In this document: positions 6,796 to 60,826 of the stretch, in pieces | Numbering within the stretch: position 1 is the stretch's first letter | Layout of the letters: every line of letters begins with the position of its first letter | Source: Roseovarius nubinhibens ISM | Lineage (GTDB): Bacteria; Pseudomonadota; Alphaproteobacteria; Rhodobacterales; Rhodobacteraceae | Direction: 5' to 3' | Length of the DNA: 64,000 nt | Assembly: GCF_000152625.1 (NCBI RefSeq) | Contig: NZ_CH724156.1 | Location: forward strand, 1,903,778-1,967,777 | The notes under the pieces: model-generated | Databases searched by the model: none | What the model was told of the DNA's origin: nothing | Seen by the model: only the letters and a program-made list of their open reading frames with translations | Program-made: the position numbers and the translations under genes

Positions 6796-7583
6796 AGGCA
6801 CTGGCCGAGACGGGCTGGGCGCTCTTCCCGGCCGAGGACGCGGTGAGCCGCTGGGCCCATCACGCCCGCGCCGCCGCCCTCGACCGCATTGTCACTGACG
6901 CCGCCCATCGCGAGGCCTGGCTCGATTGCGAAGGCACCTGGTTCGTGGGCGTCGATACGCTGCTGAATGACAGGGATGGCGCGCTGCCCGACGGCCCGCC
7001 GCTTTCGGGCACAGCCTATGAGGCGGCCCGCGCGACCTATGGCGCGCTGCCGCTCCATGCCGGGCAGGTGTCGATCACCTATCCCGGCTACCCCCGCCCC
7101 CGCGCGGGCGAGAGCGACGCCGCCCTGCGCTACCGCCGCGACCGCGACGCGGCCCATGTCGACGGGCTTCACGCCCAAGGCCCCGACCGCCGCCGTCATC
7201 TGCTCGAACGCCACGCCTATATTCTCGGCCTGCCGCTGAGCCACGCGGATCGCGGCGCAAGCCCGCTGGTCGTCTGGGAGGGCAGCCATCACATCCTGCG
7301 CCGCAGCCTGACCGAGGCGCTCTCAGGCACCGCGCCTGAGGATTGGGCCAGCGTCGATTTGACCGACATCTATCAGGCCGCCCGCCGCGAGGTATTCGAC
7401 CGTTGCACAAGGGTGGAACTGCCCGCCAGCCCCGGCATGGCGACCTTGGTGCACCGGCTGGCGCTGCACGGGGTCGCGCCCTGGTCAGAGGGCGCCGAGG
7501 CCGAAGAGACCGGGCGCATGATCGCCTATTTCCGTCCTGAATTCGAAGATGTGACCCAGGACAGCTGGCTCACCGCCCCCTAA
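6789..7583 (+). CDS. Putative Fe(II)/2-oxoglutarate dioxygenase, PhyH-like
   Basis: 264 residues from an ATG overlapping the stop of the exporter gene. The centre contains HVDG, a possible HxD iron-binding pair. About 100 residues later come a histidine in LVHRLALHGVAPW and an arginine in GRMIAYFRPEF, the layout expected for the distal His and 2-oxoglutarate-binding Arg of phytanoyl-CoA dioxygenase-like proteins. PLVVWEGSHHI also resembles the PhyH core. The substrate is unknown. Coupling to a TauE-type exporter suggests shared physiology, possibly handling of a sulfonate or a small acid, but this is inference. Confidence 0.55.
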   Translation: MVEALAETGWALFPAEDAVSRWAHHARAAALDRIVTDAAHREAWLDCEGTWFVGVDTLLNDRDGALPDGPPLSGTAYEAARATYGALPLHAGQVSITYPGYPRPRAGESDAALRYRRDRDAAHVDGLHAQGPDRRRHLLERHAYILGLPLSHADRGASPLVVWEGSHHILRRSLTEALSGTAPEDWASVDLTDIYQAARREVFDRCTRVELPASPGMATLVHRLALHGVAPWSEGAEAEETGRMIAYFRPEFEDVTQDSWLTAP

Positions 7584-17001: not shown

Positions 17002-17041
17002 CACTGTCGCTTTGCTGTCGTTTTACCGACGCAATACCGAC
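17002..17041 (+). repeat. Helically phased heptamer element, copy A
   Basis: Four heptamers start exactly 11 bp apart: CACTGTC (17002), TGCTGTC (17013), TACCGAC (17024) and TACCGAC (17035). The same 40-bp architecture occurs at four other places in this window. Copy A lies between the sodB terminator and the 3' end of the convergent LOG gene. Confidence 0.8.
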
Positions 17042-20941: not shown

Positions 20942-22555
20942 ATGATCGACACGTTGCATTCTGCCCTGCCGCGCGCCCTGCGTCTGACCCTGCTGTTCGC
21001 GGCAGAGCTGGTGCTCGTCATGCTCGCGTTTCAGCTCTTTGCCTCCTTGGAATGCCGCGCCACCTCGGTCGAGGGCGCCTGCCGCGCGCTGCGCGGCGTC
21101 GGGCTGCGCGGTGTGTCGCTCCTGGTGCTGCTGGCGGTCTATTTCTGGGCGGTGCGGGCGGCCTGGCAGGCGTTCCTCCGGCTGGCCGCGGCGCGCAATG
21201 GCGGCACCCGCTGGGTGGCGCTGCATGTCGCGGGGCTCATGCTCATCATCCTGCCCATGGCGCTTGTGCCCGATCACGCGCTCAACCCGCTCTTTCACCG
21301 CATCCTGCCGCTGATGGTGCTGGGCGGCGGCATGGCGGCGGTGGGCGGTCTCTTCTGGCTGGCAGGGCCCCGTGACTGGCAGCAATGGCTGCGGCCCCGG
21401 CTGGTGCCGGTTCTGGCGCTCGTCCTCCTCGCCGCCCTCCTGCCAAATCTGGCCGAGGCCATCGGCCCGATCTGGTATTGGGAGACCCTGACCCAGATCA
21501 CCTTTGCCGGGGTCGCCCTGATGCTCGCGCTGGTGGCCGATGTGCCGGTGGTCGACCCGGCGGCGCAGATCATCGGCACCAATGGCTTTCTGGTCGCAGT
21601 CGCCGATAGCTGTTCTGGCGTCGAAGGCTTTGTTCTGGTGAGCGCCTTTCTCGCGCTCTACGCCGTGCTCTTTCGCGACCGGCTGCGGCTCACGCGGTTC
21701 TGGCTCTGCGTCTGGCCCGTGGCGCTCTTGCTGAGCTGGCTCTTCAACGTCATCCGCATCACCGTGCTGATCATGATCGGGGCCTATGCCTCGCCCGACC
21801 TCGCGGTGAACGGCTTCCACAGCTTCGCGGGCTGGCTCTTCTTCATGCTGCTCGCCATGGCGGTGCTTTTGGTGGTCGACCGCATCGCAGGGCTGCGCCG
21901 CGTCCCCGGCCGCGACGCCCCGGCGATCCCGCTGGCCGAAGATGCGCTGGCCGCGCGCATTCTGCCCTTTGTCCTTTTCATGGTGGCGGGCGTGCTGGCC
22001 CAGAGCTTTTGGGCCGATCCGATCCTCGCCTACCCGTGGCAGGCGCTGATCATGGCGCTGTCGCTTTGGTGCTTTCGCGTGCCCCTGCGCGCCTACCTCT
22101 GCCGCCCCTCGGCGCTGGCCTTGGGGGCCGGGGTTTTGGTGGGTCTTCTATGGGTCAAATCCGCACCGTCGTCTTACAGCCCAAATACCGACGCGTTACA
22201 GACCCTGTCTCAGGCCGGTCTCCTCCTCTGGATCGCGGCGCGCTGTCTCGGCACCACGCTGCTCGTCCCGGTGATCGAAGAGCTCTTCTTTCGCAGCTAT
22301 CTTCAGGCCCGCCTGACCCAAGGACTGACCGGCCCGCTGGGCCGCCCATTTGCTGTTTTACTGGCGATTGCCGTCTCCGTCGGCTGCTTTGCCCTGCTGC
22401 ATGATCGCTGGATCATGGCCGCCGTGGCCGGCGTCATCTTTGCCGCGCTCTATCACCGTCGTGGGCGTCTCGCGGACGCCGTCGCGGCCCATATGGTGGC
22501 CAATCTGATCATCGCCATCGCCGCCGCCTCGACCGGCGACTGGGCCCTGATCTAG
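20942..22555 (+). CDS. xrtE: Exosortase E / CPBP protease fusion (VPEID-CTERM system)
   Basis: 537 residues, many membrane helices. The N-terminal exosortase half has its Cys-Arg-His triad: Cys224 in ADSCSGVEGF, Arg272 in NVIRITVL and His293 in NGFHSFAGW. The C-terminal half is a CPBP-type (CAAX-like) intramembrane protease with IEELFFRSYLQ (Glu446-Glu447) and later His/Asn motifs (FALLHDRW, AHMVANLI). This fusion is the hallmark of exosortase E, which processes proteins with a VPEID-CTERM tail, and exactly such a protein is encoded convergently 70 bp away. A phased heptamer element lies within the coding sequence, in the linker joining the two halves (22164-22203). Confidence 0.95.
   Translation: MIDTLHSALPRALRLTLLFAAELVLVMLAFQLFASLECRATSVEGACRALRGVGLRGVSLLVLLAVYFWAVRAAWQAFLRLAAARNGGTRWVALHVAGLMLIILPMALVPDHALNPLFHRILPLMVLGGGMAAVGGLFWLAGPRDWQQWLRPRLVPVLALVLLAALLPNLAEAIGPIWYWETLTQITFAGVALMLALVADVPVVDPAAQIIGTNGFLVAVADSCSGVEGFVLVSAFLALYAVLFRDRLRLTRFWLCVWPVALLLSWLFNVIRITVLIMIGAYASPDLAVNGFHSFAGWLFFMLLAMAVLLVVDRIAGLRRVPGRDAPAIPLAEDALAARILPFVLFMVAGVLAQSFWADPILAYPWQALIMALSLWCFRVPLRAYLCRPSALALGAGVLVGLLWVKSAPSSYSPNTDALQTLSQAGLLLWIAARCLGTTLLVPVIEELFFRSYLQARLTQGLTGPLGRPFAVLLAIAVSVGCFALLHDRWIMAAVAGVIFAALYHRRGRLADAVAAHMVANLIIAIAAASTGDWALI
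22164..22203 (+). repeat. Helically phased heptamer element, copy E (inside xrtE)
   Basis: Heptamers CACCGTC (22164), TACAGCC (22175), TACCGAC (22186) and TACAGAC (22197) keep the exact 11-bp spacing of the other copies. It encodes the loop SAPSSYSPNTDALQTL between the exosortase and protease halves of XrtE. Confidence 0.7.
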
Positions 22556-22571
22556 GCGGCGCATATGAAAA

Positions 22572-22601
22572 GACCGGCGGACCCAAAAGGGCGCGCCGGT
22601 C
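22572..22601 (-). terminator. Terminator between convergent xrtE and VPEID genes
   Basis: GACCGGCG pairs with CGCCGGTC across 14 nt. On the minus strand it is followed by TTTT; on the plus strand by the weaker CTTGTTTCC. It probably ends the VPEID-CTERM gene and may also stop xrtE transcripts. Confidence 0.7.
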
Positions 22602-22625
22602 CTTGTTTCCTTGACCGATCCGGGC

Positions 22626-22877
22626 TTAACCGCGGCGGCGCTTGAGCTCCCAAGCCAGTGCCAGCATCGCCATCACAGCCGCCAGCGCCAGCAGGCCAGA
22701 GCTTGCATCGATTTCCGGCACCGAGCTCACATTGCCCGACCCGCCGGTCGACCCGTGACCCCAGCGTTCATAATACCAGTCCCAGAACCACCAGCCCCGA
22801 GATTGTGCCGAAGCCGCCCCGGCCGTGGTCAGCACGGCGAGCGTCGAAAGAAATGCCGTTTGAGTAATACGCAGCAT
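22626..22877 (-). CDS. VPEID-CTERM sorting domain protein (tiny exosortase substrate)
   Basis: 83 residues. A signal peptide (about 1-24, ending ASA) leads to a mature part that begins QSRGWWFWDWYYERWG and continues with a Gly/Ser stretch. The sorting signal is VPEID at 53-57, then a membrane helix (about 60-76) and a basic tail, KRRRG. Exosortase E should recognise VPEID and cut near it. After both cuts only about 28 residues would remain, unusually rich in Trp and Tyr. The ATG has a GGGGAGATATC ribosome binding site. It converges on xrtE, and nothing in the window tells what the small product does. Confidence 0.92.
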   Translation of the reverse strand: MLRITQTAFLSTLAVLTTAGAASAQSRGWWFWDWYYERWGHGSTGGSGNVSSVPEIDASSGLLALAAVMAMLALAWELKRRRG

Positions 22878-23080
22878 GATATCTCCCCAAGAAATGACCT
22901 GCAGATAGCTTAGCTAATGCCTTCGAAAAAAAGCAAAGTTTAACCACAGTTTTGCCAGATTTCACCAAAATCGGGAAACAGATTCCCCTTATTTCAAAGA
23001 CTGTTCTCGCTTCATGGTCAATTCTGGCCGCAGACCCCCTCAGAGCCATCCTGCCTCAGAGTCGCGTCGAATCACGGGCC

Positions 23081-26000
23081 CTATTCTGCCGCGTTGAGCG
23101 GTGTCTTGGCCGCGCTGACCAAAGGGGTCGGAGGCGTGCCAACCGTCACATTCTCCGACCACAGGATTTCCGGCGGCGGTGTCCGCCGCGCCGCCCGGTC
23201 GAGCGCCAGATCCCGCGCCGCCCGGCTCGCCCGGCCCAGTGAAAGTGCCGCCAGAAGCCGCGACAGCCAGATCAGATAGGTCGTCGCCCAGACCCTTAGC
23301 GCCAGCATCGACGGCGTGAAAATCAACGTCAGAACGGTCGCGATCCCAAGGCCAAAGACCACCGCCGTCGCCAGCTGTTTCCACCAGAGCGCCGTCGGGC
23401 TGTCGAAGGAATAGCCGCCATTGACGAAATCGAGGCTGAGCCCGAACATCATCGGCGTGAGCCCGGCCATGGTGGTGATCGTGGTGAGCAGCACTGGACG
23501 AATACGCGCCTCGGCGGTCCGGGTGATCGCCTCGATCCGGGGCATATAGCGCGAATATTCCTGATAGGTGTCGATCAGAACAATGTTGTTGTTCACCACG
23601 ATCCCCGCCAGCGCGACGATGCCGGTGCCGGTCATGATGATCGAAAATGGCTGGTTCATCACCATCATCCCGATCAGCACACCAGTTGTCGAGAGCACCA
23701 CCGCCAAGAGCACCAGAACGGCATTATAGACGCTGTTGAACTGCGCCAGCAGGATGATGAACATGAGGCCCAGCGCCCCCAGAAAGGCCTTTTGCAGGAA
23801 GGCGCCGCTCTCGGCCTGATCTTCCTGATCGCCGGTCCATTCATAGGCGATCCCAGCGGGCAGCACCCCGCTGTCGAGCCACTCGGTCAGATGGGCGATC
23901 CTCTCGTTGGCATTGATCGGAACCGTTGTTTCATTGCCCTTTTCATCGCGATCTATGCGGGTGAGCCCGGTCTCGACGGCGGCCTTGATGTCGAAAAACC
24001 GGGTCTGGTCAATCCGGTCGATCTGGGCGAGACCCTGCACGGGTTTGCGGGTGATGAAATTCGACAGCGGCACGAGGCCTTCGTTGGTGCGGACCTTGAG
24101 CGTGTCGAGGGTGGAGAGGACGCGGTCTTTTTCGGGGAGGCGGACGCGGATGTCGATTTCTTCGTCGCTGGTCTCGACCGGCATGGTGTCCAGAAGGATC
24201 CCGCGGGTGACGAGCTGAACCATGGCGCCGACGGTGGCGACATCGGCACCAAACCGGCCAGCCTTTTCGACGTCCACATCGATCTGCCAGTCGATAGAGG
24301 GCAGGGGCAGCGTGTCCTCGATGAGCGTAAGCCCCCGAGTTTCTTCGAATTTCTCGCGTGCGGTCTCGGTGAAATCGCGCAGGAGCTGCCAATTGTCGCC
24401 CTTGATCCGCAGGTGAACGGGCTTGGCGGAGGCGGGGCCGCGTTCGAGGGCGAGGATCTCGATCTTGATGCCGGGGATCTGCGAAAGGCGGGCTGTGAGC
24501 TCGTCGATCGTGCGGTCGCCATCGGCCTCAGGGTCGGAGATTTGTCGTGTGAAATCAAGGCCAAAGAGGCTGAACCAGGTCTCGCGGCGGGTCGGGCGGT
24601 CCTCCCAGGCGATGAGCTCGATCTGGACCTGGCCGATGGTGTCGCGGGGCGGTTGCGCGCCGCCGGTGTTGTTGTTGAGCCCGCCGTCGCCGGCAAAGGC
24701 GAAGGCGCTTTTGACATTGGGGTGTTCGAGCACGATCTCCTCGGCCTGACGCACGAGGCTATCTTGTTGTTCCAGCGAGAGATTTCCGCGCGCGCGCACA
24801 TAGACGATGGCGTTTTCCGGCTCGGATTCCACAAAGAATTCAACGCCGCGATTGTTGCCCATGTAGAAGATCAGCACCGAGCCGACGAGCACGAAAATCG
24901 CCGCAAAGGCCAAGAGCGGCGCGACCGGATTGGCGGCGATGAGGTGGATGAAACGGCCAAAAACGCTACGTCGGTGTTGCGTCGGTATCTCGTCGGCATC
25001 GCGACTGTGGCGATTTCGGACCATTCCAGCGGCCAATCGGCGGATCCGGGCAAAGCCCGCGCCGAGCCCGACAAAGAGCGCCACCACCGAGGCGAGCCCC
25101 AGAGCCGCCAGCGCCACCACCCCCAGCATGAGGACAAAGGCCCCGATGAGCGTCGGGATGACCGAGACCACAATCGCCCCCATATTCATCGCGCCAAAGA
25201 GCAGACCCACCAGCGCCATCAGCGCCGGGATCAGCGCCGCCGCAAGCATCAGCGCCGCAATCGCCACCGGGAAGAGCAGCAGATGCCAGAGCAGCCGGCC
25301 CTGGCTCAGCGTGTCGATGCGCATCGACAGCCAGCGCTCGATCCGGCCCGTCACCCCGCCGACCACCGGCAGGTAAACCAGCGCCACCAGCAGCGAGGCC
25401 GAGAGCACAAAGATCAGCGTGACCGGCAACATGCCCATGAACTGCCCCGGAATGCCGGGCCAGAAGAGCATCGGCAAAAAGGCACAGAGCGTCGTCGCGG
25501 TCGAGCTCACCACCGGCCAGAACATCCGCTTGGCCGCCTCGACATAGGCGTGCATCGGGCCGGAGCCCTCAGAGATCCGCTTGTCCGCATATTCGACCAC
25601 CACGATGGCCCCATCGACGAGCATCCCCACCGCGAGGATCAGCCCGAACATCACCATGTTGGAGACGGTCACGCCCATCACGGCGAGCAGCGCGAAACAC
25701 AACAGGAAGGAGGTCGGGATCGCAAACCCCACCAGAAGCGCCGGGCGGATGCCGAGGGCGGCGAGCATGACGATCATCACCAGCGCGATGGCGGTGAGCA
25801 CCGAGCCTTCGAGCTGTTTCACCATGGAGGCCACGGTGCGCGACTGATCGCCGGAGGTGCCGACAGAGACCGTGGCGCGCAGCTCGTCCGGCCAGGAGGC
25901 GCGGGCGGCGTCGACGGTTTCGCGGACCAGCGCGGCAGTGTCGATGATGTTGAAGCCTTTGCGTTTGACCACCTGCAGCGCGACGGTGGTCTCGCCATTG

Positions 26001-31947: not shown

Positions 31948-31969
31948 GACGGGCCGGGAATGGCCCGTC
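31948..31969 (+). terminator. Hairpin after der, abutting heptamer element B
   Basis: GACGGGCC pairs perfectly with GGCCCGTC around GGGAAT, starting 10 nt after the der stop codon. Its last three bases are the start of the first heptamer of element B. No T-run follows, so termination activity is uncertain. Confidence 0.5.
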
Positions 31970-32006
31970 GGTATCCAGTCGGTATTGCGTCGGTAAAACG
32001 ACAGTG
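31967..32006 (-). repeat. Helically phased heptamer element, copy B
   Basis: On the minus strand CACTGTC, TACCGAC, TACCGAC and TACCGAC start 11 bp apart, the most regular of the five copies. It lies between the 3' ends of der and the convergent TspO-like gene. Confidence 0.85.
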
Positions 32007-32031
32007 GCGGTTTTGCCGCTCGCGGTCGCCG

Positions 32032-32742
32032 TTAACCGATGCGGCGCGGGCCGTCGGCGAGTTGCTTGATCGCCAGCACCGCGAGGATGAGCACGCCGCC
32101 GGCTGCCAGTGCCAGCACCACGGCGGGGCCGTCGGGGAGGTTGGACACGGCAATCGCCACCAGCGCCCAGATCACCGCCACCGGCAGGCCCAGAGCGCCC
32201 GGGCGGCTCAGCATCAGACCGATGGAGAGCATCAGGGCCAGGATGAGCGCGATCACCGCCGCGAGAATGCCGGTGCCGACGCCAAAGCCGCCGAGCAACA
32301 GCCCGATCGAGACGGAAGACGCGGCGGTGAGCCAGCCCGCATAGAGCCCGACGGGCACCAGCGCCCACCAGGCGTCGCGGGCAGGCGCGCGCAGCCAGGC
32401 CAGGACCGCGCCGAACCACATCAGCCAGATCATCAGCGTGGCGACCACCGGGCTTTGCTGGGCGACCCAGAGCCAGCCCACGCCCAGCGCCAGCGAGAAG
32501 AAGAGCGGCGCGCGCATCGGCGCCCAATCGGGCGCGTCGCGCCGTGCCCAGACGCCATAGGCGCCATGGGCGATGAGCCAGAGGTAGAGCAGCCCCCAGA
32601 TCGCGAAGGCATAGCCTGCGGGCTGCACCGGCGGATCGACCTGCGGCACCGGGAATTGATCGGGCGCGTAGCCGCCAAATCCCGGTGTGGCGAGCGGGGC
32701 TGCGGCAAAGAGCAGGGCGGCGAGGAGGACGAGATAGGGCAT
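32032..32742 (-). CDS. TspO/MBR-like Trp-rich membrane protein
   Basis: 236 residues from the ATG at 32742, with about 8 hydrophobic helices. The first helix is followed by DPPVQPAGYAFAIWGLLYLWL, and WVAQQSPVVATLMIWLMWFGAVLAW follows, a pattern resembling the Trp-rich TspO/MBR tryptophan-rich sensory group, although these proteins are longer. Function is not established; porphyrin or small-molecule sensing would be inference. A TTG start at 32811 would add 23 residues but would leave only 26 bp to the divergent DUF2235 gene, so the ATG is preferred. Confidence 0.6.
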   Translation of the reverse strand: MPYLVLLAALLFAAAPLATPGFGGYAPDQFPVPQVDPPVQPAGYAFAIWGLLYLWLIAHGAYGVWARRDAPDWAPMRAPLFFSLALGVGWLWVAQQSPVVATLMIWLMWFGAVLAWLRAPARDAWWALVPVGLYAGWLTAASSVSIGLLLGGFGVGTGILAAVIALILALMLSIGLMLSRPGALGLPVAVIWALVAIAVSNLPDGPAVVLALAAGGVLILAVLAIKQLADGPRRIG

Positions 32743-32837
32743 GGTATACCGGTATTTGAGGCGTGGGATCTTTGGCGTAGCCTCAAGGTAGCTCTGTTTG
32801 GCGTCAGTCAAGGCGCGGTGTTTTTGGGAGGTTGGGT

Positions 32838-60786: not shown

Positions 60787-60826
60787 GTCGGTAATGCGTC
60801 GGTATTTCGACGGTAAAGCGACAGTG
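60787..60826 (-). repeat. Helically phased heptamer element, copy C
   Basis: On the minus strand CACTGTC, TACCGTC, TACCGAC and TACCGAC start exactly 11 bp apart. It lies 35 bp after the nadK stop. The outer parts are also complementary (CTGTCG against CGACAG), so the whole element could form a hairpin here. Confidence 0.85.

Follow-up and report, generated by a model that had tools for sequence, protein, structure and literature searches.

To our knowledge, few oriented chromosome landmarks are described in bacteria besides KOPS and Chi. KOPS, the 8-mer GGGNAGGG recognized by the gamma domain of FtsK, is distributed genome-wide and oriented from origin to terminus, with a switch at dif. Phased DNA is found in systems of other kinds, including Pho boxes, which are 7+4 direct repeats at an 11-bp pitch, strong gyrase sites, which are helically phased over ~140 bp and cleaved by gyrase, and plasmid parC, which is made up of 11-bp direct repeats. 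AIMS are replichore-biased chromosomal sequences, defined as 8-bp sequences (PMC5993296), and the CtrA site is given, in the passages on it, as TTAA-N7-TTAA, that is, as direct half-sites at an 11-bp pitch (PMC4287350). The staphylococcal STAR elements are presented in the corresponding passages as interspersed intergenic direct repeats of 14 bp, T(G/A/T)TGTTG(G/T)GGCCC(C/A), at least 40 bp apart, with conserved repeats, species-dependent abundance and a function that is not known (PMC3532100); the word 'orientation' is absent from the text, and its passages make no mention of helical phase or replication polarity.

The element analyzed here resembles KOPS and AIMS in polarity, phased operators and wrapping sites in architecture, and STAR-type repeats in dispersal, and as far as tested it falls under none of the definitions of these systems. 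Like KOPS it occurs genome-wide in an origin-to-terminus orientation, here with a switch near a dif-like site, but it is a 40-bp phased array within ~140 bp of structured DNA, present in ~100 mostly intergenic copies. Identity with the KOPS of FtsK was rejected, since the consensus does not contain GGGNAGGG, which is present and polar by itself in the same genome (85 leading versus 11 lagging in 320 kb). The bias of AIMS is seen in the element, but its composite 40-bp array of multiple phased units does not match their 8-bp definition. With STAR it has dispersed intergenic direct repeats in common, the unit here being TACCGAC at an 11-bp pitch and not the STAR repeat. Pho-box and CtrA operators likewise consist of direct half-sites at an 11-bp pitch, whereas the element lies off promoters, is oriented with replication and has another half-site sequence. 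The likeness to gyrase sites and plasmid parC is one of DNA form alone, the element being dispersed over the chromosome with replication polarity. REP, ERIC and MITE repeats are marked by a palindrome, or by terminal inverted repeats with target duplication; of three copies that were folded here, two gave z −2.3 to −2.9 and one gave −0.0 and +1.0, and no termini were seen by eye in the relative G016. In agreement with the preliminary description, no described element of this form was recognized among the papers listed by text searches of the literature, a body of text in which subscription papers were mostly out of reach.

The window, by which we mean the whole stretch of 64,000 nucleotides, corresponds to C2:1903778-1967777 of the host genome, which was searched over 3,676,244 bases in 4 contigs. 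All five copies reported from the window were re-read in the sequence at the same coordinates and on the same strands; the 7+4 spacing is exact in all five, without an indel, and the spacers vary. Mismatches were scored over the 28 heptamer positions of the reference consensus CACTGTC-N4-TACCGAC-N4-TACCGAC-N4-TACCGAC, which reads GTCGGTA-N4-GTCGGTA-N4-GTCGGTA-N4-GACAGTG on the G-rich strand. The copies, and three flank features of the reference copy, are:

31967-32006, minus strand: reference copy, four heptamers at 11-bp pitch, 0 mismatches; between der (plus) and ORF 32032-32811 (minus)
17002-17041, plus strand: copy with 3 mismatches, in the gap between the convergent sodB and LOG-family gene
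22164-22203, plus strand: weak copy with 4 mismatches, within the exosortase E/protease ORF and on the ORF strand; matrix score 37.6, the lowest of the five
24970-25009, minus strand: copy with 3 mismatches, within the RND-permease ORF and on the ORF strand
60787-60826, minus strand: copy with 1 mismatch, past nadK
32011-32014, minus strand: AAAA tract at −8 to −5 of the reference copy, a conserved flank position in the column table of 49 oriented copies
32031-32036, no strand: GTTAAC flank site, −30 from the array start of the reference copy, from the clustering of GTTAAC in 49 loci
31959-31961, minus strand: ATT at +45 to +47 of the reference copy, the conserved downstream A/T tract of the column table, weak here

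To call the departures from the consensus single-base was slightly optimistic, as the second unit at 17002 reads TGCTGTC. The gene contexts proved to be as first described, with three copies just past gene ends (sodB/LOG, der and nadK) and two inside genes. ORF 20942-22555 of the window matches exosortase E/VPEID protease, and ORF 32832-33923 matches a Tle1-like phospholipase domain.

A genome-wide search had been named as the check on the element, and it placed the 11-bp-phased copies far above the control: at up to 3 mismatches, we identified 102 copies in the host genome (49 plus, 53 minus) versus 0 for a reversed-pattern control. A degenerate pattern gave 188 matches versus 2 in the control, a total that includes some 11-bp-shifted duplicates of one array. 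All listed own-genome copies are on C2, the remaining contigs totaling only ~100 kb. The gaps between copies are more even than random, with a CV of 0.68 over 99 gaps (100 listed of the 102 copies), in a test made conservative by shuffles that used a wider statistic than the observed value. In a genome whose window is 86% coding, 49 of the 52 own-genome copies examined are intergenic, the 52 being made up of 49 that were fetched from the top matches and 3 from the window, with genes assigned by a home-made gene caller. The genes flanking the 49 intergenic copies are convergent in 17 cases, codirectional in 24, divergent in seven and not assigned in one, with no link to gene direction. The position after gene ends thus holds for three copies in the window and not as a general rule, which is instead that copies are intergenic and oriented with replication. 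Paired copies 95-96 bp apart, or about nine helical turns, were observed in G000 at C2:637955/638050, 2296985/2297081 and 2741988/2742083.

Three parS sites were located at C2:1.380-1.383 Mb, with 0 control matches, and one dif-like site with 1 mismatch at C2:3,227,990; the dif pattern, with up to 3 mismatches allowed, also matched the control twice. Relative to the arms defined by parS and dif, 76 of the 100 listed copies (of 102) point with the arm (p=1.8e-7). The listed copies switch from minus to plus across the dif-like region, one plus copy at 3164003 lying before the dif-like site. Seven of the 24 exceptions form one plus block at 1.535-1.762 Mb, and skew, too, is reversed in the part of this block that was sampled, at 1.68 Mb. 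Agreement with local GC skew was found for 46 of 49 fetched copies in the own genome and 25 of 26 in G016, and in the sister species for 25 of 32 (G008), 23 of 30 (G032) and 21 of 30 (G079). When the arms were balanced, polarity was clear in G016 (76% of the 66 copies used from its 88; 0 of 500 permutations) and was not significant in G032 (71%; 145 of 500) or G079 (67%; 314 of 500), where only local skew shows polarity. For 7-mers of the same composition, 61% polarity is expected from composition alone. If the element arose de novo, a naive composition model would give 78-87%, a value that counts against the explanation favored below. Within the window, GC skew changes sign at ~22500-24500 and the polarity of the element flips between 22203 and 24970. 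This switch at ~24 kb was considered as an origin or terminus, but parS at 1.38 Mb and the dif-like site at 3.228 Mb speak against either; because these lie elsewhere, the switch more likely marks where an inversion ends.

The element reaches beyond what was first noted, phased A/T tracts and GTTAAC sites bringing it to roughly 140 bp. Across the 49 own-genome copies placed in one orientation, G is invariably the base after units 1 and 2, and the column table has AAAA at −8 to −5 and TTT(T) at +46 to +49. The A/T peaks of the own genome follow helical steps at about −62, −48, −38, −27, −16 and −6 and, past the array, at 47, 57 and 68, the outer tracts being weak (z about 2-3). In at least 110 copies from named genomes the peaks lie at 47, 57, 67 and 78, with the phase mainly downstream, as opposed to both sides in the own genome. 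GTTAAC is scarce (16 in 384 kb versus 35 in a mononucleotide shuffle) and clusters on either side of the array, with 20 of 27 sites within 100 bp in 49 loci of 3 kb, some of them overlapping.

The flanks are better preserved in relatives, and the G016 copies are homologous over about −80 to +100, the 40 longest of the listed pairs being 73-87% identical. The box TTAACC-N-Y-GATTCG, which was chosen from array-bearing G016 copies, was found 84 times in seven of 30 genomes searched, namely in seven of 15 array-positive and none of 15 array-negative genomes; eight array carriers, the own genome among them, are without it. At all 30 fetched sites in relatives the box lies 66 bp (20 sites) or 67 bp (10 sites) past the array start, and the arrays upstream have at most 3 heptamer mismatches in 29 cases and 6 in one. 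Of four copy sets, three have a peak of matches to the IHF consensus (≤1 mismatch) at +56/57 (6 of 26, 9 of 92 and 10 of 110 copies, versus 0.01-0.04 expected), and the own-genome set is the one where this peak is absent. Seven G016 copies (L230, L232, L233, L236, L237, L239 and L244) form a subfamily in which a further stretch upstream, with GTTGCGC in it, is conserved, which suggests a more recent duplication.

The genomes of G008, G032 and G079 are alignable and gave 75 orthologous pairs, 84 of 92 loci having at least one partner. Substitutions in these pairs amount to 50 of 2100 positions in the heptamers versus 101 of 900 in the spacers, a contrast that is inflated because the copies were found by their heptamers (≤3 mismatches) and the pairs are not independent. 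The corresponding flank values are 401 of 2906 for 40 bp upstream, 115 of 739 for 10 bp downstream and 1363 of 17941 for +110 to +350 (sections 8-16%). An indel inside the array was observed in one of the 75 pairs (L419/L426) and is exactly 11 bp. One-unit array differences are present at two orthologous sites, G032 C1:1286070 (L368) and L426, each compared with its G079 counterpart, and unit number can therefore vary; comparisons with sister sites revealed changes in the number of units and, in one case, a break in synteny.

Sister species keep the element at stable positions, which nevertheless turn over within the genus. No copy was found at the der loci of 29 congeners. For smc, 50 of the 57 genomes with a match were examined, and a copy after this gene is present only in G000 and G016. 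We considered L238/L023 at smc as one inherited copy that had been flipped and rejected this, as both distance and strand relative to smc differ. When 26 G016 copies were compared with the 49 own-genome copies, neighbor and orientation were both kept in L248/L032 and L245/L014, and L249/L046, L249/L016, L269/L006 and L233/L019 have a gene in common with a different relation to it. Of the 49 own-genome copies, 34 have CACTGTC as unit 1, in a search partly biased toward this form, as do eight of the 19 that came from the degenerate search. In named genomes unit 1 is CACCGAC-like, with C at position 4 in 77 and A at position 6 in 77 of 79 copies found by a pattern allowing both forms. Such a shift fits a putative trans-acting reader protein whose preference has drifted.

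The own-genome form (≤3 mismatches) was identified in 15 of 60 relatives including the own genome, all of one genus; 14 of 35 congeners have it, 21 lack it, and none of 25 genomes from elsewhere in the class carries it. A triple heptamer with one mismatch allowed was found in 26 of 395 genomes of the same family (completeness filter 90), the own genome included, and 369 are without it; two others had control matches only. The largest count, 254 in G331, includes overlapping arrays counted twice. A strict scan of named genomes gave at least 110 matches, and all of the 80 records listed are labeled Rhodobacterales; the genera among the matches listed are Roseovarius, Shimia, Pseudooceanicola, Boseongicola, Silicimonas and Salinihabitans. 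The element occurs in related genera, and its distribution is patchy. In 200 kb each of the array-negative G003 and G022, we detected no 11-bp-phased triple repeat of diverged heptamers; the own-genome control gave 10 overlapping windows in 320 kb at lag 11, in a search where other lags were also positive and in part more so, with 22 windows for the own genome at lag 12 and 31 for G003 at lag 15, many clustered within a single tandem repeat. The system is dispensable, as seen from the 21 congeners without the own-genome form and the 369 family genomes without the triple heptamer.

Readings of the element as RNA or as phage DNA were considered and set aside. Seven element loci had no Rfam match at E≤0.1, and an Rfam scan of the window returned SRP RNA alone at gathering score; yet two of the three copies folded are, on both strands, more stable than their mononucleotide shuffles, with the z values given above. 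An element acting at the transcript level is disfavored because the direction of the neighboring genes does not matter. As for phages, the own-genome form had no exact match in a viral collection, and blastn with one 40-nt form of the CACCGAC type had no hit at E≤0.01 among plasmids or phages. The triple heptamer matched 36 stretches of the viral collection, nearly all of them, as judged by eye, 11-bp tandem repeats in phages of other composition, with L451 alone looking genuine; several of the 15 stretches that underwent an ORF check lie inside ORFs of unrelated kinds. The viral contig L451 carries its roseobacter-like form at 7490-7518 and may be a prophage with host flank. Several phages of the viral collection (L440-L475) have 11-bp tandem repeats TACCGACCAAG, often within unrelated ORFs, and the heptamer in common is striking.

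The best explanation, to which we give about an even chance, is a dispersed, direction-bearing site of the chromosome on which a putative protein docks. The main rival is a spreading intergenic repeat of the REP/MITE kind, single-strand or replication-linked, whose polarity would come from insertion into the lagging- or leading-strand template and whose heptamers would be bound by the mobilizing enzyme. Replication-biased insertion is known for some single-strand transposons, and such a repeat would account for the polarity together with the patchiness across species and the turnover of positions between species; the extended homology of the G016 copies also speaks for it. It leaves unexplained, however, why heptamers change less than spacers at orthologous sites. 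In addition, neither terminal inverted repeats nor target duplications were seen by eye in the G016 copies, and array differences of exactly one 11-bp unit at two sister sites point to slippage and not to transposition. We consider a repeat of this kind unlikely. Operators of an OmpR/PhoB-type factor or of the CtrA/SciP cell-cycle circuit, with tandem 7-bp half-sites, 4-bp spacers and TTAA and GANTC boxes nearby, would have the same geometry as all five window copies and the same pitch as Pho boxes. Among alphaproteobacteria, CtrA and SciP are regarded as general, which sits poorly with a patchy element. The available passages on the Caulobacter ctrA promoter place the CtrA half site TTAA, the SciP half motif GCGNC and GANTC together (PMC4287350), and the G016-type element has TTAACC and GATTC, but its heptamer core is CCGAC and not GCGAC. 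Replication polarity is not expected of operators, nor is a location away from promoters, with only seven of the 49 intergenic copies between divergent genes and 17 between convergent ones, and operators are a quite improbable reading.

Strong DNA gyrase sites, as phased anisotropic DNA wrapped over ~140 bp and handling supercoils ahead of forks, would fit the length and the 10-11-bp phase of the A/T tracts and the even gaps between copies. The phased flexible arms of strong gyrase sites span about 130-150 bp, a form matched here by the phased A/T tracts, of which the outer ones are weak. Gyrase sites need no exact heptamers, however, and gyrase is universal whereas the element is patchy, which makes gyrase sites very improbable. 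Still more so, to the point of being hardly credible, are pac-like packaging-start sites for gene transfer agents, where a small-terminase ring would wrap the array for one-way packaging. The phased array, bend and polarity would fit a pac site in principle, and the agent of Rhodobacter capsulatus is described as having well-conserved homologues across the Rhodobacterales (PMC9836097). Against this, the gene transfer agent is described as packaging DNA indiscriminately (PMC9638019), and only one of the 36 viral-collection stretches, by eye, has the genuine form.

To return to the docking site, the preliminary reading of a same-face DNA array, and not an RNA or protein sequence, is still the best one in view of the near-invariant spacing, the variable spacers, the lower change of heptamers than of spacers and the phased A/T tracts. 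From this form we infer that a protein may bind the array. The data speak, from the most to the least certain point, for a DNA element that is conserved and non-random, a protein-bound one-face array, a bent or wrapped complex of ~140 bp, and a role linked to the direction of replication and not to transcription. Monomers of one sequence-specific protein could line up head to tail along a single face of the DNA, and the phased tracts, together with the IHF-like site of several species, could make the complex compact by bending or wrapping its flanks. This complex would serve chromosome handling, i.e., organization, segregation or fork passage, and not transcription, and its polarity would tell a moving machine (replisome, SMC or other translocase) its direction. 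A further reading, a bacterial analogue of oriented boundary sites, is possible but rather doubtful: a putative protein on the polar 140-bp array every few tens of kb would direct or bound SMC loops, forks or segregation in part of one family, its preference and its sites co-evolving per lineage.

The element is large, easily recognized, strongly polar and conserved, and it is found in some species of a genus and absent from others. Because it is present or absent within one genus, its function can be tested by comparison of sister species and by DNA pull-down. Even if it proves to be a repeat that is mobilized in the course of replication, it would be unusual among domesticated repeats for how well it is conserved. 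As the element is apparently kept by natural selection, it is probably a docking site for a putative protein that organizes or guides the chromosome, and tests of its function could bring to light a new protein of chromosome handling in a marine group that is abundant.
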